In this document: one piece after another, positions 5,284 through 51,515 of the stretch | Layout: each line of letters starts with the position of its first letter | Position numbering within the stretch: position 1 is the stretch's first letter | Virus record (IMG/VR): IMGVR_UViG_3300043430_000111 | Location: 1-54,535 of that record | Length of the DNA stretch: 54,535 bases | Source: a virus | Reading direction: 5' to 3' (one strand) | Notes under the pieces: generated by a model | Database searches by the model: none | Told to the model about the DNA's origin: nothing | The model's input: only the letters and a program-made list of their open reading frames with translations | Program-made: the position numbers and the translations under genes

Positions 5284-5293
5284 GCTTTACAGT

Positions 5294-5307
5294 TTCGCAT
5301 TTGCGAA
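5294..5307. promoter_or_regulatory. Switch operator TTCGCA-TT-TGCGAA
   Basis: A perfect inverted repeat with 6-bp arms lies in the gap between the divergent regulators. The same arms with a 2-bp spacer occur at 20947-20960 and 54380-54393. The position is right for a repressor operator controlling the switch. Confidence 0.65.
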
Positions 5308-5312
5308 GCCTA

Positions 5313-5341
5313 TTTACAACCCTGCGCCTAAATGGTAATGT
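5313..5341 (+). promoter_or_regulatory. Putative promoter of the 5377 repressor gene
   Basis: TTTACA (5313-5318) and TAATGT (5336-5341) are separated by 17 bases, giving a transcript start about 25 bases before the ATG. On the opposite strand TTACCA (5338-5333) and TAAATA (5316-5311), 16 bases apart, could drive the 5283 gene face to face. Confidence 0.45.
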
Positions 5342-5376
5342 TGCTGAACACATACGCGCGTAATGGAGAGCACCAA

Positions 5377-9653: not shown

Positions 9654-9895
9654 TGAATACTCCCGACCCACGCCCACAGCCACCCTCGGCCACCTCGCCC
9701 CGTGGGCTCGCGGGTGCCAACGATGCGAACGAGCTTGTGGTTCGACAGCGAGCGCAAGATGCGACCAACGCTGTAGCGGTGCGCGTCGGTGACCGGCAGA
9801 CCGAGATCGGTGCACAACTCAACGATGGTGTGGGGGCCTGTCAGAAGCAGGGTGATGATCCGCGATACGCGGTCGGCGTAACGGTGTTGGCTCAT
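9650..9895 (-). CDS. Winged-helix protein, 81 aa
   Basis: An 81-aa protein with the layout of a winged helix: helix (RVSRIITLLLTG), turn (HTIVELCTDLGLP), recognition helix (HRYSVGRILRSLSNHKLVRIVG) and wing. It overlaps both neighbours by 4 bp. Similar small proteins are found in phages of Burkholderiales. Regulation of the operon is possible but not shown. Confidence 0.6.
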   Translation of the reverse strand: MSQHRYADRVSRIITLLLTGPHTIVELCTDLGLPVTDAHRYSVGRILRSLSNHKLVRIVGTREPTGRGGRGWLWAWVGSIQ

Positions 9896-11223
9896 ACCGC
9901 AACCTCCATCTTCACGAACGGATGGTGGCGGTATCCCTTGATGTGGAAGTCGTCCAACTTGTAGCCGTCGATGTCGGTGTTATCGGTGAGGATCACCAAC
10001 TGGGCCTCGTCACGGATGATGTCGCGCCCCAGAACCTGCCGCATCTTCTCGACGTGGTTTGAGTAGAGGTGCGCGTCACCGATGTCCACCAGCAGGCGGC
10101 GCGGCTTGAGGTTTGCGGCACGGGCGTACAGGTGCGTGAGCAGTGCGTAGGCAGCTACGTTGAACGGCAGGCCAAGAGCCACGTCCGATGAGCGCATGAA
10201 TAGCTTGAGGTCAAGGTGCCCGTCGTTGGACACGTAGCACTGGTGTGTGTGATGACATGGGGGCAGCGCCATGCGATCAAGTTCGCCAACATTCCATGAC
10301 GTGACAATGTGTCGGCGGCCATGGGGGTTGGTGCGAAGACCCTCGATGAGCGTCTTCACTTGGTCGAACTCCTTGCGTAGCGGTGTGCGAGAAACAAACT
10401 CAAAGCCGTCTCGCCTCTTAGCATTCTTGTTGCCGGTCCACAGATCGGAGAAGTTCTTTGGCTCAATTCCATGTTCATCACAGAACTCGCTCACGTTCGT
10501 AAAGGCGAACCCTTCACCATTGCGGCGCACCACGTAGAGCCACTCAGCCTTGGCCGACGCATTCTCTTTGTCACTCACGAAGCAACAGGTCTCAGGTGCA
10601 TACCTGAACCCGTCCCCGAGAATGTCCTTGTCCAAGACCTTGCGATAACGTCCGAGTTCGAGGCAGTAACCGGGCAAGTTGCTAAGGTCTCCTGCAAAGG
10701 CTCGGAACTCAAGCCAGCGGTCACAAACATGAACGCCTCTGGCTCCGTAGCTCTTATAACTGATGTTCTTCGGGTCGTAGCAACGACCCATCATGCCTTC
10801 CCAGGTCTTGCCAAAGCGGCTCTCACCCTTTCCAGCACCGTTGCCAATTCCAAGATAGGTCGCCTCAACGCCATCGCGCAGACGGGGCTTGGGTTGCGGG
10901 ATGTTGTCCGGCCTTGCGCCCCATCGACGCCAGTTGAATCCATACACAGGGCCGAGGTTTCCATTCTCATCAGCCCAGGCATCCCACAGCTTGCTACCGC
11001 GCTCGTTCAGCCACTTGACGTTTGTCTGTCCACTCAGGAAGAACAGCATCTCCAGGAATGCCGTCAGCCACCGCGTCTCCTTGGCCGTCACCAGGGGGAA
11101 GCGTTCGCGCAGGTCGAACTCCAGGTTGGCACCGAAGACGGCGAGGGTGCCGACTCCGGTACGGTCGTCGCGCAGCTCACCTTCCGCCAAGATGCGGGCG
11201 ACGAGGTTAAGGTACTGTTTCAT
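9892..11223 (-). CDS. thyA: Thymidylate synthase with inserted nuclease-like domain
   Basis: A 443-aa protein. Residues 1-103 (MKQYLNLVARIL..., DRTGVGT, LWDAWADENGNLGPVYG) and 281-443 (RRHIVTSWNVGELDRMALPPCHHTHQCYV, DVALGLPFNVAAYALL, DAHLYSNH) are ThyA, which makes dTMP from dUMP; the catalytic Cys is about 323. Between them, about residues 104-280 (DNA 10384-10914) are extra compared with the usual 260-aa enzyme. This insert matches phage HNH/AP2-like endonucleases: KTWEGMMGRCYDPKNISY, YGARGVHVCDRW, VLDKDILGDGFRYAP, then a NUMOD-like helical part (VSEFCDEHGIEPKNF). No stop codon and no intein motifs occur, so it is probably kept in the protein as an insertion beside the active site. An in-frame intron is less likely, given the size. 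Confidence 0.85.
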   Translation of the reverse strand: MKQYLNLVARILAEGELRDDRTGVGTLAVFGANLEFDLRERFPLVTAKETRWLTAFLEMLFFLSGQTNVKWLNERGSKLWDAWADENGNLGPVYGFNWRRWGARPDNIPQPKPRLRDGVEATYLGIGNGAGKGESRFGKTWEGMMGRCYDPKNISYKSYGARGVHVCDRWLEFRAFAGDLSNLPGYCLELGRYRKVLDKDILGDGFRYAPETCCFVSDKENASAKAEWLYVVRRNGEGFAFTNVSEFCDEHGIEPKNFSDLWTGNKNAKRRDGFEFVSRTPLRKEFDQVKTLIEGLRTNPHGRRHIVTSWNVGELDRMALPPCHHTHQCYVSNDGHLDLKLFMRSSDVALGLPFNVAAYALLTHLYARAANLKPRRLLVDIGDAHLYSNHVEKMRQVLGRDIIRDEAQLVILTDNTDIDGYKLDDFHIKGYRHHPFVKMEVAV

Positions 11224-32769: not shown

Positions 32770-33168
32770 TCAGACTTCCATGAGTCGAATGGTGCAGCGG
32801 TAGTAGTCCCCTGCTTCCACATCAGAAAAATGCACGACAGGCTCGGCGTCGATGGCGTTGCCGTCGTGATGCCGGAAGATCACAGTCCGGGGTGTCGAAC
32901 GCAGTGTAAGCACCAACTCTTTGGCGGGAACTGCGGCCCAATTTCGCAACTGCTCAACAGTGCTGCGTGGGTGCCACGCGCTCTTGTCGTCTTGCGGCTG
33001 GAGGGTGATCGGCCTGCCGCCGATACGCGCAGCCACGTTAACGATGAGGGCGCCGGTGATCGTGCGCTCGACCGTCTGCTCGACCGGGTGCCACGAGTTC
33101 TCGTCTTCCCAATACAAGTCCGGGTGCAGTGTGACGGTGGTAGTGCCGTCGCTCAGTGTGATGCTCAT
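32770..33168 (-). CDS. Tail protein, 132 aa
   Basis: A 132-aa beta-rich protein (MSITLSDGTTTVTLHPDLYWEDENSWHPVEQTVERT) directly after the tape measure gene. The site and fold suggest a distal-tail-like protein, though it is shorter than classical Dit. It overlaps the tape measure gene by 4 bp. Confidence 0.6.
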   Translation of the reverse strand: MSITLSDGTTTVTLHPDLYWEDENSWHPVEQTVERTITGALIVNVAARIGGRPITLQPQDDKSAWHPRSTVEQLRNWAAVPAKELVLTLRSTPRTVIFRHHDGNAIDAEPVVHFSDVEAGDYYRCTIRLMEV

Positions 33169-37758: not shown

Positions 37759-38508
37759 TTACTTCTGGAGCACCACGTTGAAGGGCTCGGTGAAGCCGGC
37801 CGGGGTCTTCATGCGACCGGGCAGCGAGACGCTGGCGAAGTCGTCTTGCAGGAAGTCGAAGGCCGAGTCGGCGGCGATGATCGCCTCGTGCACCGTCACG
37901 GTGTACGGCAGGTCGTCCGCGAAGTTCTTGCCGACCAGCTTGAACTTGGCGCGCAACTGCGCGTTGGTCATACCTTTGATCTCGTCGCCGGTCGTGGTGG
38001 CGTAGGCACCGGACACCTTGATGGTGCCGCCGGCAATCACGCTGTTGTCGTTGGTGGACAGCACCTTGATCCAGCCCAACTGTTTGTCGGTGATGAAGTC
38101 GATACCTTCCGTCAGAACTACGTCGGCGGAAGTATCTGCGGTGATGCTGGTGAAGCTGGCCTTGGACAGCGGAATCCAGGTGTCCAGAGCGGTCACAGTG
38201 ACCACTTCGTCGGTCAAAGTGCCGCCCGTTTGCGACACGGCGGCGACGGTGCCCAGCAGTGCAATCGCCAAAGACTCACGGTTCACTTCCGGCAGGTCAA
38301 CCGTCAAGTCGGCAGGCTGGGGAATAGCAACCGATTCGATCACTTGACCGTAGGTGTTACGACCCTTGGAGGTCATCTCCTTGAGTTCGACGTTCGGTTT
38401 GATCTCGAACTTCGTGCACTCATAGGGGCCTTGCCAAGCCTGTACAACACCACCCGCGTAGCGCGCAATGTAGAGGTCGCCGGCACCCAAAAAGCCGCGT
38501 GCTGCCAT
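37759..38508 (-). CDS. Major tail tube protein
   Basis: A 249-aa protein (MAARGFLGAGDLYIARY) with the pattern of a phage major tail (tube) protein: a beta-rich fold and a second beta domain (TSADVVLTEGIDFITDKQLGWIKVLS). ATG 38508 has a perfect AAAAGGAGAAA. It has its own late promoter-like element (38580) and a terminator after it, in keeping with high expression. Confidence 0.8.
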   Translation of the reverse strand: MAARGFLGAGDLYIARYAGGVVQAWQGPYECTKFEIKPNVELKEMTSKGRNTYGQVIESVAIPQPADLTVDLPEVNRESLAIALLGTVAAVSQTGGTLTDEVVTVTALDTWIPLSKASFTSITADTSADVVLTEGIDFITDKQLGWIKVLSTNDNSVIAGGTIKVSGAYATTTGDEIKGMTNAQLRAKFKLVGKNFADDLPYTVTVHEAIIAADSAFDFLQDDFASVSLPGRMKTPAGFTEPFNVVLQK

Positions 38509-38544: not shown

Positions 38545-38596
38545 TGCTAAGAGTCTGCCAACAAAACGCTAAAGCGTTCTGCGGGACAATTTCGCA
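38545..38596 (-). promoter_or_regulatory. Late promoter upstream of tail tube gene
   Basis: The 17-bp element TGCGAAATTGTCCCGCA (38596-38580, minus strand) is one of four. It is followed about 24 bases later by a weak -10 (GACTCT); no -35 box is seen. The element centre would be near -44. Confidence 0.55.
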
Positions 38597-38598
38597 AG

Positions 38599-39063
38599 TC
38601 AAGGGTTGCTCAGGTCTTCTGCGAAAGAGACTTCGATAGCGACGCGCGCCTGCACCAGCGCAACGCCGTCTGCGCGCGGGCCGATGTCCTTACCCTGGTA
38701 GACCACCTCGACCACGGTGCCTCCAAGAGTGCGGCCATCCTTGAAGATGACCTTCTTGATGTCGCGGATCATCGCGTGAGCCTTGTCGTTCGGGTTGTCC
38801 GGGTCGCAGGCGTCGAAGCCGTCGATCAGGTATGGCTGGCGGACCTTCACCAATGCGCTCTGGCTGCGGCCGGCTGTGTCTTCCACGTCGTCGTTACCCT
38901 CAATGAGCACGCAGCAGGGCACCTCATCATCGACAGGCATCTTGCGGCGTCCACGCTTGATGTTCTGGCCGACGTTGGTCTCAAAGCCGTTGGCGACCGA
39001 GATGGTCGAAAGGCGAGCGACGATGGCTGCTGCCACATCGGAGGACTTGACGTACACGGTCAT
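38599..39063 (-). CDS. Tail completion protein, 154 aa
   Basis: A 154-aa protein (MTVYVKSSDVAAAIVARL) located between the gpZ-like and the tube genes, the place of the tail terminator (gpU) in lambda-like phages. Central block RKMPVDDEVPCCVLIEGNDDVED. The assignment rests on order and size. Confidence 0.65.
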   Translation of the reverse strand: MTVYVKSSDVAAAIVARLSTISVANGFETNVGQNIKRGRRKMPVDDEVPCCVLIEGNDDVEDTAGRSQSALVKVRQPYLIDGFDACDPDNPNDKAHAMIRDIKKVIFKDGRTLGGTVVEVVYQGKDIGPRADGVALVQARVAIEVSFAEDLSNP

Positions 39064-39782
39064 TCGATTGCCTTCCTGAGTTCTTCTTCAACTCGGTCAA
39101 CGATGGCGCGTTCGAGTTCGTCACCCACGTCGTCTTGGATGGCCGCGCCAACGGTCTTGAAAAGTTGATAGACGGACGGGCCGTGCAGCGCCTTAACACC
39201 CTGACGTGACTGCTTGCGGTTGCGGTCCATCTTTCCGGAGCCACCGACACCCGTCCCGACGAACAGTACGGGGCTACCGTCGTTGTGCTTTTTACCGGGG
39301 ATGGTGAAGACCGAGCGCATGGTCTTTCTAGACCCGCGCGTCACCGCGACGCTGAAGCCGGCCTGTTTGTCGCCTGCATCAATCCCACGGTCGGCGCCAC
39401 CCTTTCGGTCTTCCCACTTAGGCCACGGGCCGATCTTTCGACCTCGCTCAAGACCGTCTTCCTTATCCCACTTCGACGCTTTGACCTCTTGAAGCGCACC
39501 GTAGTGACCCAAGCCTGTCAGGAAAGGGTTGCCACCCTGGGCGACAATCTCCGCAATAGGCTTACCTGCCGATGCTTCACGCACCCGCATTCTCGACCTG
39601 ACGTAGGCGTCGTCCAGGTTGATCGTCTTGATCATTCGACCTCGCGCAAGCTCGTAGGTCTCGTTCGTGATGCGGTTGATTGTTTCGACCACGGCTCTAC
39701 CGAGGTCTTCCGCGCGGATTGCACCGAGCCGGCCTTGCAGTGCCTCGATCTCGCTCATGTCGAGCTTGATGTCGAACGCCAT
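39060..39782 (-). CDS. Minor tail protein Z-like
   Basis: A 240-aa protein resembling the lambda gpZ family: MAFDIKLDMSEIEALQGRLGAI, ARGRMIKTINLDDAYVRSRMRVREAS, PVLFVGTGVGG and a helical end. gpZ helps complete tails and positions DNA for ejection. It overlaps the gpU-like gene by 4 bp and starts one base after the connector gene's stop. Confidence 0.75.
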   Translation of the reverse strand: MAFDIKLDMSEIEALQGRLGAIRAEDLGRAVVETINRITNETYELARGRMIKTINLDDAYVRSRMRVREASAGKPIAEIVAQGGNPFLTGLGHYGALQEVKASKWDKEDGLERGRKIGPWPKWEDRKGGADRGIDAGDKQAGFSVAVTRGSRKTMRSVFTIPGKKHNDGSPVLFVGTGVGGSGKMDRNRKQSRQGVKALHGPSVYQLFKTVGAAIQDDVGDELERAIVDRVEEELRKAIE

Positions 39783-39783
39783 C

Positions 39784-40083
39784 TCAGACCTTCACGACGA
39801 CAAACCTGCGGATGAATCCGCTGTCAACTACCAGCGCATCGAGCTTGTACTTCGCCCCGTTGACGGTGAGCGCATCGCCCACCTTCGGGTCGAGCGAGGA
39901 TTCGATGCTGGCGATGTCTTGTGTGACCGTCGTGTAGCGTTCGACGGTAGGGTTGAAGTCCAACCCTTCCAAGTGAACACCGCGTTCGATGTTCACTTGG
40001 CAGGGCACACCCCCGCGCAAAAGGGCACCCCCGCCCAGGAGGGCGAGAGCGTCCTTTGCTGCTTGCGCGAAGATGTCGTTCAT
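39784..40083 (-). CDS. Head-tail connector protein (gpFII-like)
   Basis: A 99-aa protein after the capsid gene, the place of lambda gpFII. Beta-rich (VPCQVNIERGVHLEGLDFNPTVERYTTVTQDIA, KYKLDALVVDSGFIRRFVVVKV). ATG 40083 overlaps the capsid gene stop. gpFII joins tails to filled heads. Confidence 0.68.
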   Translation of the reverse strand: MNDIFAQAAKDALALLGGGALLRGGVPCQVNIERGVHLEGLDFNPTVERYTTVTQDIASIESSLDPKVGDALTVNGAKYKLDALVVDSGFIRRFVVVKV

Positions 40084-41096
40084 CAAGAGGCTGCGGCAGA
40101 CAGCTTGATGACGGCTTCAGGCAGGGTGTTCAGGTGAACCGGGTTCGATTGCGACTCCAGCATCACACCCTTGTTGAAGGGCAGAACTTCCTGCTTGGCG
40201 TAGTACGGCAGGCCGTTGGTGTTGACGGTCTCCATGTAGTCGGCCGGAGCGAAGGCGGTTTGGAACATGCCGCGCACGCCTTCTGGGTAGGCGTAGGCGA
40301 AGCCGTCTTCGATGAAGTCCGTGCCACCGACGCCGCCTTCGTAGATGTGGAAGACCACACCGCCGAATTCAAAGTCAGACTCGGACTGGTCGGTGCGACC
40401 GAACTGACCTTGCTGCCACAAGTCCCAAGCCTTCTTCATGTTGGCGTGAGCGATCAGCTTGTCGAAGAAGCCGACCGAGCACTCGACACGCACGCGAGCG
40501 AAAGAGCGTCCGCCCAACTTCTCGCGGATGGCTCGCTTGAGCTTGACACACAGCTCCTTCGGGTCTGCGGTGGTGCCGGTGGTGGCGATGTTCCAGAACT
40601 GCGTCACCTGCGTCATGCCAAACAGCGTGTACAGGTTCAGGATGGTGCTCGAACCATCGGCGTCCAGGATCAGACCCTTCAGGGCACCGACACGCTGGTA
40701 CTCGTGGGTCAGGTCCAGGTTGGCCTTCATCTTGTCCAGACGCTGACGAACCACTTGGCTCATAGCCTGCACTTCGGTCTCGGAACCGAAGGCGCGCACA
40801 CCCTGAACCACATCGGCCAGGATGGAGTCGCGCTGCGGCAGGTGGACCGTCGCCACAGGGATGAGCTTGCGGGTTTCGCTCTCCAGCGTCTGACCAACGC
40901 CGCCGCGCGGAGCGGTGGGCACCAGTTGCAGATTCGAGCCCTTGCGCTCGATCATCATGGTGGTGGTCGTGATGCCGTACTCTTGGAAGATACCAAGATC
41001 ACCCAGGCGAGTGGGCACGCGGGGGATGTCAACGATGGTCTGGGTCAGTTGGCTGACCTGAAACGCATCGTCGTTGAAGATGTCAAACGTAGCCAT
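40083..41096 (-). CDS. Major capsid protein (lambda gpE-like)
   Basis: A 337-aa protein of the Phage_cap_E family: MATFDIFNDDAFQVSQLTQ, LQLVPTAPRGGVGQT, VHLPQRDSILADVVQGVRAFG and SEVEC-SVGFFDKLI-type E-loop and P-domain parts. The end (DYMETVNTNGLPYYAKQEVLPFNKGVMLESQSNPVHL) is typical of the family. It makes the head shell and follows the decoration protein gene, as in lambda. Confidence 0.9.
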   Translation of the reverse strand: MATFDIFNDDAFQVSQLTQTIVDIPRVPTRLGDLGIFQEYGITTTTMMIERKGSNLQLVPTAPRGGVGQTLESETRKLIPVATVHLPQRDSILADVVQGVRAFGSETEVQAMSQVVRQRLDKMKANLDLTHEYQRVGALKGLILDADGSSTILNLYTLFGMTQVTQFWNIATTGTTADPKELCVKLKRAIREKLGGRSFARVRVECSVGFFDKLIAHANMKKAWDLWQQGQFGRTDQSESDFEFGGVVFHIYEGGVGGTDFIEDGFAYAYPEGVRGMFQTAFAPADYMETVNTNGLPYYAKQEVLPFNKGVMLESQSNPVHLNTLPEAVIKLSAAAS

Positions 41097-41127
41097 GTTC
41101 AGTGTGCTCCTGAGTCAATGTGTTGGC

Positions 41128-41523
41128 TCACAGAGCCGGGGTTGCGATACCGGCCGTGTCGATGCCGCGGACCTTGATGCCCAGAGCCAGCAGGTCGGCT
41201 TCACCAGCGGTGTCCAGGCCGGTCAGCTCGAAGCGATTGAACTCGGCGTCCTTGTTCAGGATCACAGACTTCACATCACCAGTCACAGCGTCGGTGGCGC
41301 GGTACAGAACGCCGGCTGCGACTTCAGAGCCGTCAGCGGCGACGTTGCTGTAGGGCTTGTACTTGCCGGAGGCAGTCACCTTGCCCAGCACGGTGCCGGA
41401 CTTGATGACGCTACCTGCGACAATCACAGTCACGTTGTCGCGGCTGCGTTCGCCAGGGGCTTCGGAGAGGATGAACGGCTTGACCTTCGGGCCGTTGTCG
41501 TAGATGTGGCCGGATACGGGCAT
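41128..41523 (-). CDS. Head decoration protein (lambda gpD-like)
   Basis: A 131-aa protein matching the HDPD family: an AGSVIKSGTVLGKVTASGKYKPY block and DAVTGDVKSVILNKDAEFN. It binds to the capsid after expansion and stabilises filled heads. It lies between protease and capsid, as in lambda. Confidence 0.85.
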   Translation of the reverse strand: MPVSGHIYDNGPKVKPFILSEAPGERSRDNVTVIVAGSVIKSGTVLGKVTASGKYKPYSNVAADGSEVAAGVLYRATDAVTGDVKSVILNKDAEFNRFELTGLDTAGEADLLALGIKVRGIDTAGIATPAL

Positions 41524-41532
41524 GGTGGCTCC

Positions 41533-42567
<1,035 letters not shown>

Positions 42568-42594
42568 GAGCGGTTCCTTACCTAATTGGAACGC

Positions 42595-42640
42595 ACTCTA
42601 TGTCGCAAACGCCAAACTACCCCTGCGGGACAATTTCGCA
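42595..42640 (-). promoter_or_regulatory. Late promoter upstream of prohead protease
   Basis: TGCGAAATTGTCCCGCA at 42640-42624, followed by AAACGCCAAAC (plus strand 42607-42617) and a TAGAGT -10 (42600-42595) 24 bases from the end of the element. It overlaps the 3-prime end of the 98-aa gene. Confidence 0.6.
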
Positions 42641-42913
42641 ACGTGTCAGGTCGATTTCATTACCCAATCGGGTTTTGAGATACGCACGAGCGCACGCGGC
42701 GAGTGGGTCAGGGTCGATCCCGGATTTCCACGCGCTCAAACCTGCGATCTTGTAAGGGAGCCTGACGTGGACCACGTAGACCGGCCCCCACCGCTCCATC
42801 ACATCGGCCTCACGCAGGAATAGATGCCACGGGTCAATACCTCGACCCTCTAATTGCGCGACGATCAGATGCAGCATCTCGCTGCTCATGTCGTCAACGC
42901 GGACGGTGGTCAT
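42617..42913 (-). CDS. Hypothetical protein, 98 aa
   Basis: A 98-aa protein (MTTVRVDDMSSEMLHLIVAQLEG) with WGPVYVVHVRLPYKIAGLSAW and a helical C-terminus (LAACARAYLKTRLG). The pattern resembles small DUF2591-like phage proteins, but weakly. It lies after the spanin genes and overlaps the Rz1-like frame by 20 bp. Function unknown. Confidence 0.6.
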   Translation of the reverse strand: MTTVRVDDMSSEMLHLIVAQLEGRGIDPWHLFLREADVMERWGPVYVVHVRLPYKIAGLSAWKSGIDPDPLAACARAYLKTRLGNEIDLTRCEIVPQG

Positions 42914-43217
42914 TTTCTAGGCCAGGATTCGTAGAGCTGGCGGGACTCCGCAGCATGGCGGTCAGCTTGTCGCGCGACTTCTGCACCGCGTTCAGCCATG
43001 CCTCGACCTCGCTCTGCCAAGTCGTTGAGTACGTCTGTGCAGGCGCTGGCGTAGGCTCGAACGCCGGCGTCGGAAGCGGCGTCGATACGCTCGGTGAGAC
43101 CGGCAAAGTCCCCCCGCATCCCGGCAGTAGTGCTGCGAAGATCAAGCAGCACACGCGCGAGTTTGTCGGCCGCTTCGTCGTTGGCGTGCTGCGTGCGCTG
43201 GAACTTGTCGAGAGCAT
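42894..43217 (-). CDS. Outer-membrane spanin Rz1-like, nested
   Basis: A 107-aa frame inside and past the Rz-like gene, in another frame. It has a short hydrophobic part CCLIFAALLPGC ending in a lipobox-like L-P-G-C, then a Pro-rich segment (LPVSPSVSTPLPTPAFEPTPAPAQ), as in Rz1 lipoproteins. The Pro after Leu is unusual in a lipobox. ATG 43217 gives a long N-terminus; a GTG near 43154 would give a more standard signal peptide. It pairs with Rz to fuse the membranes at lysis. Confidence 0.65.
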   Translation of the reverse strand: MLSTSSSARSTPTTKRPTNSRVCCLIFAALLPGCGGTLPVSPSVSTPLPTPAFEPTPAPAQTYSTTWQSEVEAWLNAVQKSRDKLTAMLRSPASSTNPGLENDHRPR

Positions 43218-43407
43218 CGGTCATCCCCTTTTGGTGAGCGACCATCTCAGCGACAGCCGCGTTTGTTGCTGACAACTGCTGACTGGTTTTTCGCTGCTCG
43301 ATGCGTGCGATCTCGGCGCCGAGCCTCCATCCGTTCGCCGCCCAGCCGCCGAGCGCGCCTGTGGCGATTGCCGCGGCAATGGGGATGAGCGTAAAGCGGT
43401 CGATCAC
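42910..43407 (-). CDS. Inner-membrane spanin Rz-like
   Basis: A 165-aa type II membrane protein: N-terminal anchor (LIPIAAAIATGALGGWAANGW), then a long coiled coil with Ala, Glu and Arg, the layout of i-spanins (DUF2514-like). It spans the periplasm and binds Rz1. The Rz1-like frame is nested in its 3-prime half. It overlaps the endolysin gene by 4 bp. Confidence 0.75.
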   Translation of the reverse strand: MIDRFTLIPIAAAIATGALGGWAANGWRLGAEIARIEQRKTSQQLSATNAAVAEMVAHQKGMTDALDKFQRTQHANDEAADKLARVLLDLRSTTAGMRGDFAGLTERIDAASDAGVRAYASACTDVLNDLAERGRGMAERGAEVARQADRHAAESRQLYESWPRK

Positions 43408-43940
43408 GGCTTGACGAACGCCACCGCGGCGTTGTGGTTGCGTTGGAACTTCGAGCGCAACTCTCGGCGCTGCTCATCCGAACCCCGCTCGTGTGCACCT
43501 GGGCGCCAAGTTCGCAGGTACAGGCGCCACGCGCTCTCTGCGTCGGTCGGCATCGGCAGTTCAAGTGGGTCGGTGTAGATCAGCAAGCGGGCGAAAGCGG
43601 CCCCCAGCACATCGTCAAATGCCATGCGCTCCCAGACTGCTCTGCTCTCGGCGTTGACACCACGCGCAGTGCAGATGCGACCGGCGTGGCCGCGGCTGGC
43701 CTTGTGTTGGAGTACACCCAGCACGCCGCCTGCCCGCTCAAACTGCCAGAACGACAGCGCCGGCCCGAGGGTGGTGTTCTTGCCACCCTTCTCCAACTGG
43801 TCGCGGTGCTCGAAGCGCGACTCTTGCATCCCGAAGGTCAGCAGCAGCACGCGGGCGCTCGGCGTGTCCATGACTGATGGCAGCAGAGCCAGAGCAGGCT
43901 CGATGGCCGTCTTGGTGATGTGTTCAAACAGATCGCTCAC
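43404..43940 (-). CDS. Endolysin (lysozyme/transglycosylase-like)
   Basis: A 178-aa soluble protein between holin and spanin genes. It has LLTFGMQESRFEHRDQL (Glu as candidate catalytic residue, as in lytic transglycosylases) and GPALSFWQFERAGGVLGVLQH. There is no signal peptide, so it needs the holin. Overlaps of 4 bp on both sides. The enzyme class is inferred. Confidence 0.7.
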   Translation of the reverse strand: MSDLFEHITKTAIEPALALLPSVMDTPSARVLLLTFGMQESRFEHRDQLEKGGKNTTLGPALSFWQFERAGGVLGVLQHKASRGHAGRICTARGVNAESRAVWERMAFDDVLGAAFARLLIYTDPLELPMPTDAESAWRLYLRTWRPGAHERGSDEQRRELRSKFQRNHNAAVAFVKP

Positions 43941-44227
43941 GAGCGGCCTTTCTTGAGCGTGTAGTCCGGCGCTCCGGTGCGCCAGTCCGACGATGTTGCG
44001 AGTTGGCTGGCGACGAGCGCGGTCAGCAAGATGAGTTGCCCGAGGTCTTCATGACGGGGGAAAAGCCAGGGTGACAGCGCCGAGCAAAAAGCCCCGACGA
44101 ACACAAGCAGGTATCTCAACTGGAAGGCCACACGGGTGTGGCCCATCCTCGATTTGTTGAGGCGACACAGAGACACGTAGCTCAGTGCGAACGAGAAGAT
44201 CGAGATGCCCACGTCTACCGTCGTCAT
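43937..44227 (-). CDS. Holin-like protein, 96 aa
   Basis: A 96-aa protein with three hydrophobic stretches (VGISIFSFALSYVSL, YLLVFVGAFCSALSPWLF, LGQLILLTALVASQLA) and a basic C-terminus (TLKKGRS), the layout of class I holins. ATG 44227 is chosen over GTG 44230. With the next protein it may form a holin/antiholin pair. Confidence 0.65.
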   Translation of the reverse strand: MTTVDVGISIFSFALSYVSLCRLNKSRMGHTRVAFQLRYLLVFVGAFCSALSPWLFPRHEDLGQLILLTALVASQLATSSDWRTGAPDYTLKKGRS

Positions 44228-44610
44228 CACTCACCTCGCTTTGGTAGCATCGCCAGCAATCTCTCAGAGCCCCAGGCGACGACGCGCGGCCAGTCGTGAC
44301 CTATACCTGCGATGGAGACGGAAACCGGAGCCAGGAGCCAGTGCACAGAGTCAAGCTGCGCCCAGATGTTGATGATCTCGGCCACCCCTGTTGTCACCAG
44401 AGAGGACAGCCCGATCATGAGTGTCACAAAGCCGATGGCGCCGAAGCGCGGAAGCTCTTGGATGCGCAAAAGCGCGATACCCGAGCCCACGGCCGCGCCG
44501 ATGATGATGACCGAGTAAGCACCGAGAAAAGTCGCCAGAGTTGGGCCAACGAAGACCGTGAACCCAGCTATCAAGGCACTCACCGGGTCGAGTGAGTTCG
44601 GTTGCTGCAT
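44227..44610 (-). CDS. Second holin-like membrane protein, 127 aa
   Basis: A 127-aa protein with three to four hydrophobic segments (ALIAGFTVFVGPTLATFLGAYSVIIIGAAVGSGIAL, FGAIGFVTLMIGLSSLVTTGVAEI, SVHWLLAPVSVSIAGI). The first gene of the lysis unit, after a late promoter-like element. Probably holin or antiholin. Confidence 0.62.
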   Translation of the reverse strand: MQQPNSLDPVSALIAGFTVFVGPTLATFLGAYSVIIIGAAVGSGIALLRIQELPRFGAIGFVTLMIGLSSLVTTGVAEIINIWAQLDSVHWLLAPVSVSIAGIGHDWPRVVAWGSERLLAMLPKRGE

Positions 44611-44641
44611 AGACTGCTATCCCATTTTCAGGTTTAGCGCA

Positions 44642-44685
44642 TTGTCCGTTGGCAACCTTGATCGTTTATGCGGGACTTTTTCGCA
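44642..44685 (-). promoter_or_regulatory. Late promoter upstream of the lysis genes
   Basis: The variant element TGCGAAAAAGTCCCGCA (44685-44669) differs at two bases from the other three copies. A GACAAT -10 begins 23 bases later (44646-44641 region). It would drive holins, endolysin and spanins. Confidence 0.55.
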
Positions 44686-44696
44686 ATATGCCGCAC

Positions 44697-44780
44697 TCAC
44701 AGTGCTGCGTCCACCTTGGTCTGGATCTGGAAGATGGCTGTCAGCTCGGCGTGCAACTCAGCGCGAACAGCAGCGCGGTT
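44697..44780 (-). pseudogene. 3-prime remnant of a fibre-type gene
   Basis: A 27-codon reading frame ends in TGA at 44699-44697: NRAAVRAELHAELTAIFQIQ and then TKVDAAL. An in-frame TAA lies just upstream and there is no start codon. The sequence looks like the C-terminus of phage fibre-like proteins (RAAVRxELxxEL...). It marks the edge where another fibre module was replaced. Confidence 0.55.
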
Positions 44781-44784
44781 TTAT

Positions 44785-45021
44785 TTATATAATTGAGGCC
44801 AATACCGGCACTGCAACTCCTAATACGTTTGAAGCCATATCCTGCCAACTGGGTTCACCACGTTTGAGATACCAGTCGTGAATAACTTCCTTGGAAGCTG
44901 CAACGATCAAAGTAACGGCAACCGCATAAACCAGAGGAAGCACCAGCATCAGCAGGGTACAGATCACTGCACAGTACAGAGCATGGTTTGCCTTGTCTTG
45001 TGGGAGCTGTGGAAGATTCAT
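44785..45021 (-). CDS. Small membrane protein, 78 aa
   Basis: A 78-aa protein (MNLPQLPQDKANHALYCAVICTLL) with two hydrophobic segments and the motif SKEVIHDWYLKRGEPSWQD, a phage-encoded membrane protein type found after fibre genes. Base use here is more AT-rich than the neighbours. It may be an accessory lysis or superinfection protein. Confidence 0.65.
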   Translation of the reverse strand: MNLPQLPQDKANHALYCAVICTLLMLVLPLVYAVAVTLIVAASKEVIHDWYLKRGEPSWQDMASNVLGVAVPVLASII

Positions 45022-45030
45022 AGGTACTCC

Positions 45031-45336
45031 TTATGCCCAAACTCGGGATGGTGTTGATGGGTAAACAGTGTAGGGCTCAAGGGTTGAGCCATCCTCGTCC
45101 GGCATGAGGAATACGTTGACGTGCCAACCATCGAGCGTCTCCGTGATGGGCTGGCCTTGGTCGTCCATCTCGCCGGTCAGCTTGGTGATCTGGCCGATGG
45201 TGTCGATGTTGCGGAAGTTTGGCGTGCTGTACGCCTCGTTGAGAATATTGCCATCAGCATCCAAGATAGCCAGATGCTCGGTGTATAGGGCTGACTTGGC
45301 TTGAGCTTCGTCAGTGAATTTTAGGCAGATGTTCAT
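45031..45336 (-). CDS. Hypothetical phage protein, 101 aa
   Basis: A 101-aa protein (MNICLKFTDEAQAKSALYTEH) of a type known from fibre regions: NFRNIDTIGQITKLTGEMDDQG and DGWHVNVFLMPDEDG. ATG 45336 has GAGGATC upstream. It probably aids fibre assembly or is a small structural protein, judged by position only. Confidence 0.65.
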   Translation of the reverse strand: MNICLKFTDEAQAKSALYTEHLAILDADGNILNEAYSTPNFRNIDTIGQITKLTGEMDDQGQPITETLDGWHVNVFLMPDEDGSTLEPYTVYPSTPSRVWA

Positions 45337-45344
45337 GATGATCC

Positions 45345-47066
45345 TCATGCTGTAAGGGCTTGCAACTCGGTATTGCTCAGACGCTTAGGGTAGTAAGAGA
45401 GTTTCTTGATTGTCCCATTTAAGCTATAAGAACTTCCCGACAAGATCCCAACACTAAGTGCTGATGCATTTCCATAAGGAGTAGAGAATGAGCCAGCTAC
45501 GGGGATACTCCCAGATAGGGAGATTGAAAGACTTCCACTACCATATGCAGTTGTGATTTTAGCCCCTGGAAAGTACGTCCCCGTGGCAGTTATTTGCGCA
45601 GTATCAAAACAAGATACAGTACCGTTTGGGTTTATAAATGCAATGTGACCATTGCCATCTATTCCAGCAATCCCCCTGACGTTTCCACCATACTCAGCAT
45701 ACGAGTCCATAAAGAATGTACCCTCATCCTGCCGAAACCAGCTACTGAAATTCGCACCCGCCATTACCGCAGCATCAGCAGCACGAGTTACCTGTGCTGC
45801 GGTTGTGGGGATGTAGGAGGTTGGGAAAGCTCCCGCTTCTAATTGAGCACCCCATACATTGAGGGTTTCGCCCCCAGTTGCAACCATTGCACCATTACCA
45901 GATGCATCCGCAAAATACACCACAAAGTAGTCTGTGACAGAGGCTGTTACATAAGTAGACACGCAACGATACCAACCACCACCAATATCAGTAATTGTTG
46001 CGCTGCCTCCAACAACAGTTTTCATGACTGTTCCGTTGGACACATTGAAGGCAGACCCGCCCATGTAAAGGTAACCGTAAGTTCCAGCTCGCGCATACAC
46101 TGAAGCGGTATATTTTGCTCCTGCTGTTACTGTTATGGCTTGGTAATACCCACGGTTTGCCCACGCCCCAGCAGTCGCTTGCAATGTCGTGCCAGCAAGA
46201 ACCCCATCCGGCGCAACAATGTTGTTCGAGTAGCGGGTGACATTGCTCGAAATCCAGCCAGAACCGACTGCGCTCTGAGTAACAAGGTTCGTCCTCTGCT
46301 CCTCAATCAACAGCCCCAGGCTTTCACCCGTCACAGGGTTATGGTCGAAGCGAGGGACGCCAGATGGAGCAGTCTGAAGAACTGGCTGGTACTTGGTGAT
46401 AGGCCGGTCTGTGGTGGGGATGTAGGCTGTTACTTGACTGCGTTGTTCTAGTTGGGCGCCCCAGATGTAGATTCCCGATATGCCGTCACCCGTTACAGAC
46501 TGGTTGGCTACGGTGATAGAGGCAGTTGACGCAAAGATTCGCACTCGGTCACTGCCGCCTGCAACAGCGACGGCGATCCGATGCCAACCACCGCTCATTG
46601 ATGCCGAAGTGACAACGCATCCCGTGCCTTGCAGCGTGACCGTGCCAGTAGAAAGGTCAACACCAGCTAAGACGCCAGTGTTTCCGAGGGACACACCAAG
46701 ATGATTTGCGGTGTTTGCTTTCGCATAGATTGAGAACATCGCAGGAGCTGCAACAGCCGGGATTTGTTGCAAGTACCAGATACCGCTTGAGCCGCTGGCG
46801 GTAACAAGCGAATCAGCAGTAGACGTACCATCTGGCGCGGTGGTTGTGTTGGCCGTGACCGTTACGGACACTTGACCCCAAGCTGCATTATCAAAATCCT
46901 GACTGTACTTCAGCAGGTTCTCTTCAGCCTTCGCCTGCGTCACGCCATCCCAATAAGTTGCCGTGGATGCACGGGTGAACGTGATGCGAGGATCGAGCTG
47001 CTTGGTATTTGCAAAGTCCAGATTCAAACTTGGCTTGATATTCGGAAACTTAGATTTAATACTCAT
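45345..47066 (-). CDS. Tail fibre/spike protein, 573 aa
   Basis: A 573-aa protein (MSIKSKFPNIKPSLNLDFAN...). Two related carbohydrate-binding-like modules begin NLLKYSQDFDNAAWG and TNLVTQSAVGSGWISS; each ends in a WGAQLEQRS/WGAQLEAGAFPTSYIPTT line. The C-terminus is a LamG/concanavalin-like fold (GTFFMDSYAEYGG... GTIKKLSYYPKRLSNTELQALT). Such modules bind sugars on the host surface. Lower GC than flanking genes suggests that it was acquired separately. Confidence 0.78.
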   Translation of the reverse strand: MSIKSKFPNIKPSLNLDFANTKQLDPRITFTRASTATYWDGVTQAKAEENLLKYSQDFDNAAWGQVSVTVTANTTTAPDGTSTADSLVTASGSSGIWYLQQIPAVAAPAMFSIYAKANTANHLGVSLGNTGVLAGVDLSTGTVTLQGTGCVVTSASMSGGWHRIAVAVAGGSDRVRIFASTASITVANQSVTGDGISGIYIWGAQLEQRSQVTAYIPTTDRPITKYQPVLQTAPSGVPRFDHNPVTGESLGLLIEEQRTNLVTQSAVGSGWISSNVTRYSNNIVAPDGVLAGTTLQATAGAWANRGYYQAITVTAGAKYTASVYARAGTYGYLYMGGSAFNVSNGTVMKTVVGGSATITDIGGGWYRCVSTYVTASVTDYFVVYFADASGNGAMVATGGETLNVWGAQLEAGAFPTSYIPTTAAQVTRAADAAVMAGANFSSWFRQDEGTFFMDSYAEYGGNVRGIAGIDGNGHIAFINPNGTVSCFDTAQITATGTYFPGAKITTAYGSGSLSISLSGSIPVAGSFSTPYGNASALSVGILSGSSYSLNGTIKKLSYYPKRLSNTELQALTA

Positions 47067-47075
47067 AGGTATACC

Positions 47076-48812
47076 TTATGCCAGCGTGATGGTTGCCGAG
47101 CGTGTCACCCCATCAGAGCCACGAACCAAGACTTTCAAGCTGGTGTTGCTTTCAAGCTGGAACGACATATCCCCATTGGTGCCAAGCATCGGGGCTGCGG
47201 CAGTTGGTTGGCAAACCATGTTGCCAGATACTTCCAACTTACCCCCGGACGACTTGGTTGATCTACCAACAAGCACGTCACCCGCAAAGTAGTTGATATG
47301 GTCAGCCTTGGTTTGGTAGACCCCGTACTTGTTTGTTACTACTCCAGCTCCTGACACTGTTACGCCATCTAGGTAAGCATCATAATAAGAGCCTACTGTT
47401 TGCGTTCCGGTGGCGTTTCCAATAGTTGCATTGGTGTATAAGCCACGGGCATTTGTAATAACTGCCGTTGTTCCAGCAGCTACCATATTGATGGTTGAGT
47501 AATACCCAGTTGCTTCGACAATTGTTCCAGATTGGTTTGCGATTGTTGAGCTTACGCCAAACGCTTGCCCGGTAGCTACAGTAGATGGTACTGCAATGCT
47601 GTGCTGGACTATAGACCTGAACCCCGCCAAGTAACTAGAGGGATTAGTATTATTCCCTACATCTAGCGCATTGTTTCTCCGCACAATGGCCTGGAAACCG
47701 TTCAAGGCTACTCGACCTCCAGGATCGAGAGTGTAGCCGTTGAGGACGGATTGGTAACCGGTAGCAAACATCGACCCCCCACCAGCAGGGATTCGATCAT
47801 CAACAAAAGTACCGTAGAAGTAGTTACCCGCAGCAGTCTGCGCTGCATTTGCTGATGCCGAGAGCTTAAATTCCGGTGGAAATACAAAGCTACTGATAGG
47901 CACCACAATACCATTCACCACCCTGCTCCCAAAAGGCCCAGTCAGTGACAAACCACTCAGAGTAGGTGAGTCCGTACTGAAAGCCAAAGGCCCAAGATAC
48001 TGATTCAACGGGATCTGGTTCGGCCCTGTGCCAATGTCAGACTGGATCACAGCATCCACACCACCTTCTTGCAGGGTGGTGGGATTGACTGTGCCACCAG
48101 TGATCGTCTTGTTGGTCAGCGTGGCGACTGCTGCGCGCTCTGCAAAAACGTGCGCTGTCGTGGCTATCTGCGTGGTATTGGTGCCAACCGCTGCTGTCGG
48201 GGCGGTCGGTGTGCCAGTCAGCGCGGGTGACGTGAGCGGTGCTTTGAGGACTAGCGCTGTCTGTGTCGCGGTGCTGACGGGCTTGTTCGCATCGCTGGTG
48301 TCGTCCACGTTACCCAGCCCAACGTCACCCTTAGCCAGCGTGACCGCCCCGGTCTTGCCTGCGACGCTTTGCACGGGTGCAGCGGCTGCGGCTTCTGCTG
48401 TGGTGGCGTACTGAGGGTGCGGGTCTGATGCGGCTGTGTGGGCAGTGACTGCGGCGACTGCGGTGCCTGCGGGATCGGCCCCTGCCTGTTCCGCGTCGTG
48501 GGTGTGGGTGCTTGGTGGGAAGGTTGCGGGCTTGCCGGTCACGCCATCCCAAGGCACTGCATCGGCGCTGTCGGCGGCGCCTACTTTTCCGTCTCCGTCG
48601 GCGTCATAGCGGGACGCCAGCATGTCGCCGCGCTGCGCCCACTGCGCGGGGGCAGCAGACACCAGCATCCACTCGCTGTTGTTGTCTTGTTGCAAGCAGT
48701 ATTTGCCCACGTCTTCGGCAAGCACGGCGATGGCCGCGCGTGCTGCGGCGTTGGCTACGCGCCAGTTTTGCGGCGCGTGAATTTCACCCGCAGGGATTTG
48801 TACGTGTTCCAT
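47076..48812 (-). CDS. Tail fibre protein, 578 aa
   Basis: A 578-aa fibre. The N-terminal part (to about 100) is a virion-binding domain with DADGDGKVGAADSADAVPWDGVTGKP, then the classic fibre repeats SVAGKTGAVTLAKGDVGLGNVDDTSDANKPVST and LTSPALTGTPTAPT. The C-terminal half is beta-rich with a switch to lower GC. It likely binds the host receptor. Confidence 0.82.
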   Translation of the reverse strand: MEHVQIPAGEIHAPQNWRVANAAARAAIAVLAEDVGKYCLQQDNNSEWMLVSAAPAQWAQRGDMLASRYDADGDGKVGAADSADAVPWDGVTGKPATFPPSTHTHDAEQAGADPAGTAVAAVTAHTAASDPHPQYATTAEAAAAAPVQSVAGKTGAVTLAKGDVGLGNVDDTSDANKPVSTATQTALVLKAPLTSPALTGTPTAPTAAVGTNTTQIATTAHVFAERAAVATLTNKTITGGTVNPTTLQEGGVDAVIQSDIGTGPNQIPLNQYLGPLAFSTDSPTLSGLSLTGPFGSRVVNGIVVPISSFVFPPEFKLSASANAAQTAAGNYFYGTFVDDRIPAGGGSMFATGYQSVLNGYTLDPGGRVALNGFQAIVRRNNALDVGNNTNPSSYLAGFRSIVQHSIAVPSTVATGQAFGVSSTIANQSGTIVEATGYYSTINMVAAGTTAVITNARGLYTNATIGNATGTQTVGSYYDAYLDGVTVSGAGVVTNKYGVYQTKADHINYFAGDVLVGRSTKSSGGKLEVSGNMVCQPTAAAPMLGTNGDMSFQLESNTSLKVLVRGSDGVTRSATITLA

Positions 48813-48815
48813 TTT

Positions 48816-49406
48816 TCAAGTCACTTTCACATATTCGCCATTCACCATCACGGGCTCGCCGTCCACCGTGACAGAGCCGACTGGCAGGCCGCTCGGGAAC
48901 CACGCTTGCATCTGTGCGTAGCTGGCGCGCGCCCATTGCCCGCTCTGTTGCACCAGGAACTCAGCAGGCACAGCGGATGTGGCGGCGGGCAGGCTGTCAA
49001 TGTCAAACGGCGGCACCGCACCAGCAGCGCCGCCGGCGCCACCAGGGCCACGGTCGCCGCGCGCGCCTTTGGGGCCGCGCAACTCCACCAGATCGCCCCA
49101 GCCGCCTTCGGGCTTTTCAAAGCGCAGCTTGGTGCCCTGCCACTCGTGGGCGGGCATGGGGCCGGTGTCGCCTTTTTCTCCCTTCTCGCCCTTGGCTCCG
49201 CGAGGGCCAACCTCGCCTTGCGGGCCTTGCGCGCCGCGTGCGCCGCGTGCGCCGCGTGCGCCGGGTAGGCCGTCATCCCCGTTGCGGCCATCTTTGCCGT
49301 CTCGCCCCGCAGGACCAGGGTCGCGCGCCAGTTTGTCAAAGCGCGAACGCAGGTCACACAGACCTTTCGTGAGCAGCGCGATGAGGTCCAGGTCAGAGTT
49401 GCGCAT
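48816..49406 (-). CDS. Collagen-like structural protein
   Basis: A 196-aa protein with Gly-X-Y triplets from about residue 32 to 85 (GPAGRDGKDGRNGDDG..., then GARGARGARGAQ and GEKGEKGDTGP) and a second short run GPKGARGDRGPGG. The triplets form collagen triple helices, used in phage fibres and head spikes. The C-terminus has a DIDSLPAATSAVP region and a small domain. It overlaps the portal gene stop. ATG 49421 is an alternative start. Confidence 0.78.
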   Translation of the reverse strand: MRNSDLDLIALLTKGLCDLRSRFDKLARDPGPAGRDGKDGRNGDDGLPGARGARGARGAQGPQGEVGPRGAKGEKGEKGDTGPMPAHEWQGTKLRFEKPEGGWGDLVELRGPKGARGDRGPGGAGGAAGAVPPFDIDSLPAATSAVPAEFLVQQSGQWARASYAQMQAWFPSGLPVGSVTVDGEPVMVNGEYVKVT

Positions 49407-51102
49407 TTCCAACCACCGCATCTACGATGCGCTCAGTCAACGCGAGGCGCTGACGCTCGATGTCGGATGTATCTTTGGGTTCGCGCCGCAAGACTTCGGT
49501 CTGCGCCTCAAGTGCGGCGACCTGAGCGCGCTCCAGCACGTTCGGCGGGGCGCTGTACTCGTCATCATCAATCGCGTCTTCTTCCGGGTCGTCTTGCGGC
49601 TCGGTGGGAGTGCCTGCCGGCACGACTTCCCCTTGAAGCAGGCCGAGTTCTTCTTCGCGCTCGCGGTCGGCCGCGCGTTCCTCGTCCACCATGTCGGGGT
49701 CTTCACCCCGCTCACCGATGACGCTGGAGCGGCTGCGGAAACCTGCATCCACTTCGAGCTTCTTGCCTTGCGGGTCTTGCACCGGGTGAATGTGAGCCCA
49801 GCCGTGCGGCGCCCACTCGACGCGACGCACCGAGTCGGCCTCATCGAGGTCAATCTTGCCCACAAGCACTGCGGCATCGACGCCCCAAACGAGCGTCTTC
49901 TGGCAGAACTGCGGGATGATGATTTGCCACTGTCGCTGCTCTGCGTGGCGCCGGAACTCGTTGATGATGACGCGCAAAGTGCGGTCAGACACATCCTTGA
50001 TGTCGCCCGAAAACACCTCATACGGCAGGCCCGACGCTGCGGCGGTCCCGAGGTGTTGGGTTCGCATGTAGTCGGAGTAGTTCGTACCGGCCTCTGGCGG
50101 GTTACTCCACTCCACCCCTTGCCCGTCATCCAACTCCTGCACCAATCCAGGTTGCAGGCCCACCAATGGGGTGCCGTCGCTGCCGTGATCGAAGGGCTGA
50201 CCTGTCAGACCGTCCAGTTCCTCGTCACCGGTGAGCGCGGGTAGCTTGCGCGTGATGAACGCGACAACGAGGTTCGCCAACTGCTGACGTGTCAGCGTGG
50301 CGTCGTCGTAGTTCTCGATATTGCGCAGACGTGCCAGGATGGGTGCCAGCATCGAGACGCCGCGCAGTTGGCCTGGGCGGATCGGCTCGAAGACGTGGAT
50401 CATGTCGGACGCGGCCACGCGCACCAACTCGTCGGCGCTCACGCTCCCGCCCGTGTTGTCGCCGGGGTGCTCTTTGTAGACCCAATACGCGATGCGTCGG
50501 CCGCGCTTGTTGAACTCGATGCCGGAGCGAATCTTGTTCCCGGCAGGCAAGCCGTTGTAGGTGTCTGCGTCCAGCAGCGGCACCATGTCAGCCTCGATGA
50601 CTTGGTACTGAACCGGCAGTACCAGACCTTCATCTGCGAAGCGCGCACGGCGGCGCACGAACACTTCGCCGCTGTCCAACCAGGAGCGCACGGCGAGCGT
50701 TTGCAGACCGAAGTAGTTGAGCACGCCGTCTGCGTCGCACTCAGCCCAATGGTCGTTCATCAGGTCGATGATTTCCTGCTTGCGCTTCTTGTCGAGCACA
50801 CGCTTGAAACGCGGTGTGATCCCGATGCCGATGAGGTTTGTCGTCCACTTCTGGACACCACTGGCACCGGACCAGTCGTTGCGCGACGAATCGCGTGCAC
50901 GGTTTCTGATGGTCTGAAGTCCGGCGATAGCCCGGTTGGGGCCACTTGCCGGAGGGTTCCAACCTGCCATCCGACGACCGTGCGAGGCTGCGTCGTAGCG
51001 TGCCTTCACATCGGCGGGGGCCTGTTGCCTCTGGAACGCCTCGACGGCAGCACGCGCCACCAACGTCTCGGGCTTCGGCGGGCGACCGCGGCGTGCTGCC
51101 AT
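49393..51102 (-). CDS. Portal protein (lambda gpB-like)
   Basis: A 569-aa portal of the lambda gpB family: MAARRGRPPKPETLVARAAVEAFQ, RRMAGWNPPASGPNRAI, WTTNLIGIGITPRF, DMIHVFEPIRPGQLRGVSMLAPILARL and a final acidic, disordered region. It forms the 12-fold ring through which DNA enters and leaves. The gene overlaps gpW by one base. Confidence 0.88.
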   Translation of the reverse strand: MAARRGRPPKPETLVARAAVEAFQRQQAPADVKARYDAASHGRRMAGWNPPASGPNRAIAGLQTIRNRARDSSRNDWSGASGVQKWTTNLIGIGITPRFKRVLDKKRKQEIIDLMNDHWAECDADGVLNYFGLQTLAVRSWLDSGEVFVRRRARFADEGLVLPVQYQVIEADMVPLLDADTYNGLPAGNKIRSGIEFNKRGRRIAYWVYKEHPGDNTGGSVSADELVRVAASDMIHVFEPIRPGQLRGVSMLAPILARLRNIENYDDATLTRQQLANLVVAFITRKLPALTGDEELDGLTGQPFDHGSDGTPLVGLQPGLVQELDDGQGVEWSNPPEAGTNYSDYMRTQHLGTAAASGLPYEVFSGDIKDVSDRTLRVIINEFRRHAEQRQWQIIIPQFCQKTLVWGVDAAVLVGKIDLDEADSVRRVEWAPHGWAHIHPVQDPQGKKLEVDAGFRSRSSVIGERGEDPDMVDEERAADREREEELGLLQGEVVPAGTPTEPQDDPEEDAIDDDEYSAPPNVLERAQVAALEAQTEVLRREPKDTSDIERQRLALTERIVDAVVGNAQL

Positions 51103-51323
51103 CAGTACCCCCGACCCGTCTGCACGAGGTAGGTCTGCTTCGGACGGCGTTGGCCGGTCGCAGCAGCGTTCTGTGCGTTGAGTTGCGCCTGGAGGTTGTC
51201 GCGTGCGCGGATCAACGACTCCGAGGTGTTGTAGATGACTGTCTGCCCACCGACCGTGACAGAGCGAACTCCGCGCTTAATCGCGTCGTTGAGGTTGTCG
51301 ATGTCGAGTTGGGTCACTGCCAT
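51102..51323 (-). CDS. Head-tail joining protein (gpW-like)
   Basis: A 73-aa protein (MAVTQLDIDNLNDAIKRGVRSVTVGGQTVIY) of the gpW family: two helices and a beta hairpin. It binds the portal. No ribosome binding site precedes ATG 51323, and the predicted transcript start is only three bases upstream, so translation may be nearly leaderless. Confidence 0.8.
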   Translation of the reverse strand: MAVTQLDIDNLNDAIKRGVRSVTVGGQTVIYNTSESLIRARDNLQAQLNAQNAAATGQRRPKQTYLVQTGRGY

Positions 51324-51328
51324 AGTGA

Positions 51329-51378
51329 CGCGAATGTAGCGTTTGGCAGTCCGCAAAGCCCTGCGGGACAATTTCGCA
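51329..51378 (-). promoter_or_regulatory. Late promoter upstream of gpW gene
   Basis: TGCGAAATTGTCCCGCA at 51378-51362, then TACATT (51338-51333) as -10. No -35 box. The centre is at about -44 from the predicted start. It would drive the gpW-portal-fibre genes. Confidence 0.6.
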
Positions 51379-51385
51379 GAAAAAG

Positions 51386-51413
51386 AAAAGGACTTTCTGC
51401 GGAAAGTCCTTTT
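51386..51413 (-). terminator. Perfect 12-bp stem terminator
   Basis: AAAAGGACTTTC (51386-51397) and GAAAGTCCTTTT (51402-51413) pair fully around TGCG. On the minus strand the stem is followed by a T-rich tract. It ends the terminase transcript directly before the late promoter of gpW; it can act on both strands. Confidence 0.85.
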
Positions 51414-51515
51414 GGCGTTTGGCACCGGGGCCGTTGCACCCGGTTCGGTCGTCAGGACTTCCACCTGCCCTTGGTGTGCGGAATTTCACCGCAGCGATAG
51501 CCCTACTGCTTCGGC

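Follow-up and report, generated by a model that had tools for sequence, protein, structure and literature searches.

Candidate late promoters with a shared upstream element and no -35 box in a phage genome encoding a Mor-like protein

A shared element at five putative late promoters

The viral DNA stretch analyzed here (IMG/VR record IMGVR_UViG_3300043430_000111, positions 1 to 54,535; all 54,535 nucleotides (nt) are hereafter called the window) carries five copies of a 17-mer ahead of putative late gene units on its minus strand (Table 1). In our view this element probably serves a phage activator as its binding site at five sigma70-type late promoters without a -35 box, with the product of the Mor-like gene at 1191-1712 as the most likely activator. 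Comparison with related phages strongly supports a reading in which the activator site, centred at about -44, would replace the -35 box. The first-pass annotation of this sequence had interpreted four of the sites as late promoters; the comparative data support this interpretation, amended to five promoters and an asymmetric element.

Three of the five copies are exact (TGCGAAATTGTCCCGCA) and two carry two changes each (TGCGAAAAAGTCCCGCA and TGCGAAATTGGGCCGCA), all of them on the minus strand. Among 100 dinucleotide shuffles of the window, none reached five matches (mean 0.24). The four positions annotated before (51362, 42624 and 38580 as exact copies, 44669 with two changes) were correct, but the fifth copy at 32932-32948 had been missed. 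The late units assigned to the four sites (gpW/portal, holins, protease/capsid and tail tube) were correct in outline. The element had also been described as a dyad with TGCG...CGCA ends, and its 4-bp arms are indeed perfect in the window, but the frame itself is not unusual: TGCG-N9-CGCA occurs six times against 3.3 expected in this genome of 60% GC. Because the bare frame is common, the dyad ends carry little weight, and the significance of the element lies in its conserved interior and its placement.

A portal search yielded 20 related phage loci and an alignment of Mor proteins yielded 24, several of them new; a single-protein search of viral contigs with the Mor-like protein of the window brought up no relatives. 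Two relatives, Acidovorax phage ACF1 and Curvibacter phage PCA1, have been isolated. The final set comprised 79 sites in 22 records, with 62 sites outside the intragenic position. The consensus across relatives, CG[A/C]AAT-N4-CCGCAG, spans 16 bases and is asymmetric, with two nearly invariant blocks and four largely free bases between them. The outer T and G, which perfect the dyad of the window, vary in close relatives, and in this comparison a perfect dyad is peculiar to the present genome.

The element sits at the same gene boundaries in the relatives, namely gpW/portal, holin-like, protease/capsid, tail tube and large tail genes, its orientation always follows the late genes, and single records hold up to five or six sites. 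Sites orthologous to element 1 occur in about 20 related records, those orthologous to element 2 in ACF1, G021, G011 and G022. The form of the element varies between phages: ACF1 has CCGAAAT-N4-CCGCAG, PCA1 has CGAAAT-N4-CCGTTG, and the intergenic sites of G007 and G009 read GCAAT. In G014, G019 and G020, whose Mor proteins are more distant, GAAAT is kept and the right half is changed. Four relatives forming one clade (G015-G018) have an extra element ahead of the terminase region; a scan with the 17-mer found none at this place in the window.

A -10 hexamer follows the element at all five sites. The first-pass annotation had placed such a box 23-25 bases after three or four copies; the box itself was confirmed, but the spacing is tighter, at 22-23 bases after CGCA (21-22 after CGCAG). 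In 56 of 56 non-redundant exact matches, nAnnnT begins 21 or 22 bases past CCGCAG, as compared with a mean of 4.9 and a maximum of 16 matches at other distances. When a matrix for Escherichia coli-like -10 boxes was scored at every distance over all element matches with up to two mismatches, it peaked only at 21-22 (mean 3.4 versus -4.7 at other offsets, standard deviation 1.8), and 2000 random site sets scored far below this peak. This looser search included three matches without a hexamer, none of them at a late unit. Base counts of the -10 box from the 79-site set are partly conditioned by site selection, while the matrix scan and the count over 56 matches are unbiased.

A TTGACA-like hexamer was not enriched at 16-18 bp in the 62 non-coding sites, which bears out the earlier remark that no -35 box is visible. 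With the -10 box placed at -12 to -7, the centre of the 17-mer falls at -43 or -44, in agreement with the annotated position near -44. In phage Mu, the activator Mor binds from -51 to -36, centred at -43.5, at a promoter that has a -10 but no -35 box (PMC4390567, PMC4287176).

The candidate activator and other explanations

In the proposed mechanism, the Mor-like protein would probably be made from early minus-strand genes (Cro-like gene, primase, mor) and would occupy the region from about -52 to -35, presumably in dimeric form. There it would substitute for the -35 contact and bring in the host RNA polymerase with sigma70 for late transcription of the gpW/portal, holin-like, protease/capsid, tail-tube and large-tail units.

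The choice of 1191-1712 as candidate activator, made already in the first-pass annotation, is supported by family, position, co-occurrence and an independent phage lineage. Its product matches Pfam Mor (PF08765) with 27.7 bits, above the curated cut-off of 24.9, and this family is also matched by the proteins of eight of nine relatives at E up to 0.1. It further matches PHROG 836 (late transcriptional activator; 6e-17), and PHROG 836 and 532 are matched by the window protein and by Mu Mor/C alike. The gene is kept in all seven near-complete relatives (7/7). Two other records, G002 and G004, gave no match to mor; the preceding primase is likewise unmatched in them, and the mor-bearing segment is therefore probably absent from these contigs. 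The C-terminal tail of the Mor-like protein (window 1191-1330) is of low complexity, with repeats of the form KNPGEKS; the repeat in G009 is similar. A sequence search of the PDB returned only a match to the repetitive tail and generic helix-turn-helix (HTH) matches.

The independent lineage consists of the Stenotrophomonas phages Suso and vB_SmaS_QH16 (QH16), which have Mu-like head genes and a Mor-like protein of PHROG 836. A de novo search revealed the palindrome GGTGCGG-N4-CCGCACC (with no more than one change) at three corresponding late places in each genome, followed by a -10-like hexamer that puts its centre near -44; first-order Markov controls gave means of 0.07 and 0.15 matches against the three and three found. 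The GAAAT...CCG form was searched for in both phages and not found. They thus share with the window a PHROG-836 gene and a TGCG...CGCA site near -44 with a -10 box at several late units, but differ in the perfect palindrome, in having six instead of nine bases between TGCG and CGCA, and in their Mu-like head genes. These palindromes, apparently undescribed so far, support the proposed link between Mor-like genes and such promoters.

Several observations weigh against the Mor-like protein as the activator or limit the case for it. Its similarity to Mu Mor is weak, as seen by BLASTP and hhalign to Mu Mor/C. Its structure model, with a predicted local distance difference test score (pLDDT) of 79, gave only general HTH matches with Foldseek and VIA-align, and Mu Mor, whose structure is solved, was not among the matches listed. 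Relatives do not conserve the dyad that a symmetric dimer would call for. In G014 the right half-site is changed while the recognition helix resembles the one found in phages whose sites read CCGCAG, so the two half-sites may be read differently. Finally, a partial Mantel test of protein against element distance did not single out Mor as partner of the element: Mor came ahead of capsid, protease, portal and tube, but behind TerL and g32770. This test is undiscriminating because all genes are inherited together.

The promoters could also depend on another phage protein, for example the product of 5014-5283, which is the only other conserved gene of the near-complete relatives without an obvious structural, packaging or replicative role. 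Being kept in 7/7 of these relatives as well, it is also compatible with the co-occurrence, and its product appears HTH-like by eye. However, the gene adjoins a divergent repressor-like gene (5332-5805, plus strand), as genes of Cro-like proteins do, and its product, which by eye is probably Cro-like itself, matches no activator family. No element lies near the gene, and Suso and QH16 combine the Mor-like gene and different virion genes with the same promoter geometry. We therefore regard this alternative as unlikely. The pair of Cro-like and divergent repressor-like genes at 5014-5805 suggests a lysogeny switch; ACF1 and PCA1 carry integrases.

Somewhat less probable still is that the element serves as a repressor operator or as a site for another process. 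Repression from a conserved site ahead of operons is conceivable in principle, but promoters without a -35 box should be weak when unaided, the spacing to the -10 box is fixed at 21-22, the orientation always follows the late genes, and the position fits that of an activator site at about -43.5.

Element 5 lies within the tail-region gene 32770-33168, 165 bp ahead of the large tail gene, and might be a mere by-product of protein conservation instead of a promoter; the encoded peptide LRNxAA...LTL is in fact also conserved. We consider this explanation very improbable in view of the synonymous positions under the element and its -10 box, where rare codons are kept nearly invariant (Asn AAT and Thr ACA in 17/17, Leu CTT in 16/17 and Arg CGA in 15/17 phages). 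AAT, ACA, CTT and CGA are uncommon in the same phages and account in ACF1 for 4, 3, 2 and 4% of the codons of their amino acids. Mean codon-pair identity is 0.92 over element 5 and its -10 box and falls to 0.47 elsewhere in the gene (p ~9e-5, ignoring phage kinship). Moreover, codon choice tracks the intergenic version of each phage: G007 and G009 use CGC in the intragenic copy, matching their GCAAT sites, and in PCA1 GCA is replaced by GTT, matching its CCGTTG sites and changing Ala to Val. The R-N and L-T-L residues are missing from G014 and G020, two phages with deviating elements. The simplest reading is that element 5, which is under strong selection at the DNA level, would be a promoter within a coding sequence.

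We consider a sigma54 (-24/-12) promoter on the other strand a negligible possibility: the reverse complement of the common variant (GCGGCACAATTTCGC) contains GGCAC, but such a promoter would point away from the late genes, its GG-to-GC distance is 9 and not 10, relatives keep CG and not GC there, and a sigma70-type -10 box is present in the right direction. GG-N10-GC in gene direction was absent from the conserved columns, and a sigma54 promoter was rejected, with a partial match of wrong spacing on the opposite strand. In favour of this alternative, late promoters of Pseudomonas phage YuA reportedly depend on sigma54.

Comparison with Mu and other phages

Mor of phage Mu serves a single middle promoter, Pm, where it recognizes a pair of 5-bp inverted repeats within 16 bp (PMC4390567, PMC4287176). 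The window resembles this system in the -10 box, the missing -35 box, the site centred at about -43.5 and a protein of Pfam Mor/PHROG 836. It differs in that five putative late promoters share one site, which is asymmetric across relatives, and in that the protein is only distantly similar. The late promoters of Mu (lys, I, P and mom) are driven by the activator C, itself made under the control of Mor (PMC4461284). As with C, one Mor-family activator would serve several late units; however, the window yielded just a single Mor-family gene. Furthermore, the C site of Mu is found upstream of a non-consensus -35 box or overlaps it (PMC4461284), whereas the promoters of the window show no -35 box. 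ACF1 and PCA1 share the late gene order, the Mor-like gene and the promoters with the window, but have their own element variants, and the Mor gene of ACF1 is annotated as hypothetical. A literature search, which reached few subscription papers, found no description of these promoters, and a term search in the ACF1 and PCA1 papers found promoters not mentioned at all.

To our knowledge, Mor and C have been studied in detail only in Mu. There is perhaps an even chance that a widespread branch of PHROG 836 Mor-like proteins outside the Mu-type transposing phages runs whole late regulons via an asymmetric site (two dissimilar half-sites, GAAAT and CCGCAG, spaced by one helical turn), including a promoter inside a tail gene and leaderless gpW and terminase mRNAs. 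The 22 records would represent a second, naturally varied set of Mor-type promoters with half-site variants paired with sequenced activators, in which activator-DNA recognition and -35 replacement become comparatively testable. In addition, a function is proposed for genes annotated as hypothetical, as in ACF1, the gpW start is corrected, and element 5 would offer a clean case of a promoter under selection within coding sequence.

Late units and gene starts

The called open reading frame (ORF) of gpW, 51102-51464 (GTG at 51464), spans promoter 1. This start is probably wrong and the true start probably the ATG at 51323, since homology begins there and this ATG follows the -10 box at leaderless distance, 9 nt past it. 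In ten phages, this one included, the gpW ATG lies 7-9 nt past the -10 box, and at the terminase-region elements of four phages the first ATG follows after 6-7 nt; no obvious Shine-Dalgarno sequence precedes these gpW and terminase-region ATGs. Given the usual start distance, the gpW and terminase mRNAs are thus predicted to be leaderless or nearly so. Leaders are longer for most protease and tail-tube genes and contain AGGA- or GGAG-type sites. In the window, the protease ATG lies 27 nt past the -10 box of promoter 3 with an AGGA-type site, and the tail tube ATG 43 nt past that of promoter 4 with a GGAG site. The protease unit comprises protease, decoration and capsid genes. The membrane protein that starts the holin-like unit had no holin family match. 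The terminator-like hairpin upstream of promoter 1 is a pattern match of a kind not rare around this promoter.

Table 1 Coordinates of elements, -10 boxes and genes in the window and of sites in other phages
Feature	Position	Strand	Remarks
Element 1, TGCGAAATTGTCCCGCA	51362..51378	minus	exact; ahead of gpW/portal
-10 of promoter 1, TACATT	51333..51338	minus	22 nt past CGCAG
Element 2, TGCGAAAAAGTCCCGCA	44669..44685	minus	two changes; ahead of holin-like unit
-10 of promoter 2, GACAAT	44641..44646	minus	21 nt past element
Element 3, TGCGAAATTGTCCCGCA	42624..42640	minus	exact; ahead of head protease/capsid unit
-10 of promoter 3, TAGAGT	42595..42600	minus	22 nt past CGCAG
Element 4, TGCGAAATTGTCCCGCA	38580..38596	minus	exact; ahead of tail tube gene
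-10-like box of promoter 4, CAGACT	38552..38557	minus	21 nt past CGCAG; weakest of five
Element 5, TGCGAAATTGGGCCGCA	32932..32948	minus	two changes; intragenic, within 32770-33168
-10 of promoter 5, TACACT	32903..32908	minus	22 nt past CGCAG; within codons Leu-Thr-Leu
Mor-like protein, candidate activator, 173 amino acids	1191..1712	minus	Pfam Mor and PHROG 836
Terminator-like hairpin (intrinsic type) with T tail	51386..51413	minus	directly upstream of promoter 1; pattern match
gpW-like head-tail adaptor gene, corrected start (probable)	51102..51323	minus	PHROG 2545 match from residue 48 of called ORF
Portal protein gene, first late unit	49393..51102	minus	PHROG 21, 2e-92
Membrane protein gene, holin candidate	44227..44610	minus	about 3 transmembrane-like segments; starts holin-like unit
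Head maturation protease gene	41533..42567	minus	PHROG 94, 133
Major tail (tube) protein gene	37759..38508	minus	PHROG 807, 1e-33
Tail-region gene holding promoter 5	32770..33168	minus	PHROG 4408, 1e-39
Large tail gene downstream of promoter 5, 1211 amino acids	29132..32767	minus	PHROG 6128
Terminase-region elements of four relatives	G015:C1:16899, G016:C1:24917, G017:C1:18586, G018:C1:37147
GGTGCGG-N4-CCGCACC sites of Suso and QH16	L154:3393, 10248, 41110; L155:34831, 42150, 27813

Two minor observations were made alongside. Four phage contigs, L095-L098 (JAFVSK010000026.1, NZ_QPIJ01000089.1, JAFNPO010000100.1 and JAFUBE010000634.1), are 99.98-100% identical over their shared stretch, and they stem from the assemblies of an isolate (Vreelandella rituensis) and of three metagenome-assembled genomes from ruminants, four bacteria unrelated to one another; this near-identity is likely due to contamination. 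The window also carries a thymidylate synthase gene at 9892-11223 (Pfam, 1e-92), and modified thymidine in the phage DNA is therefore possible.
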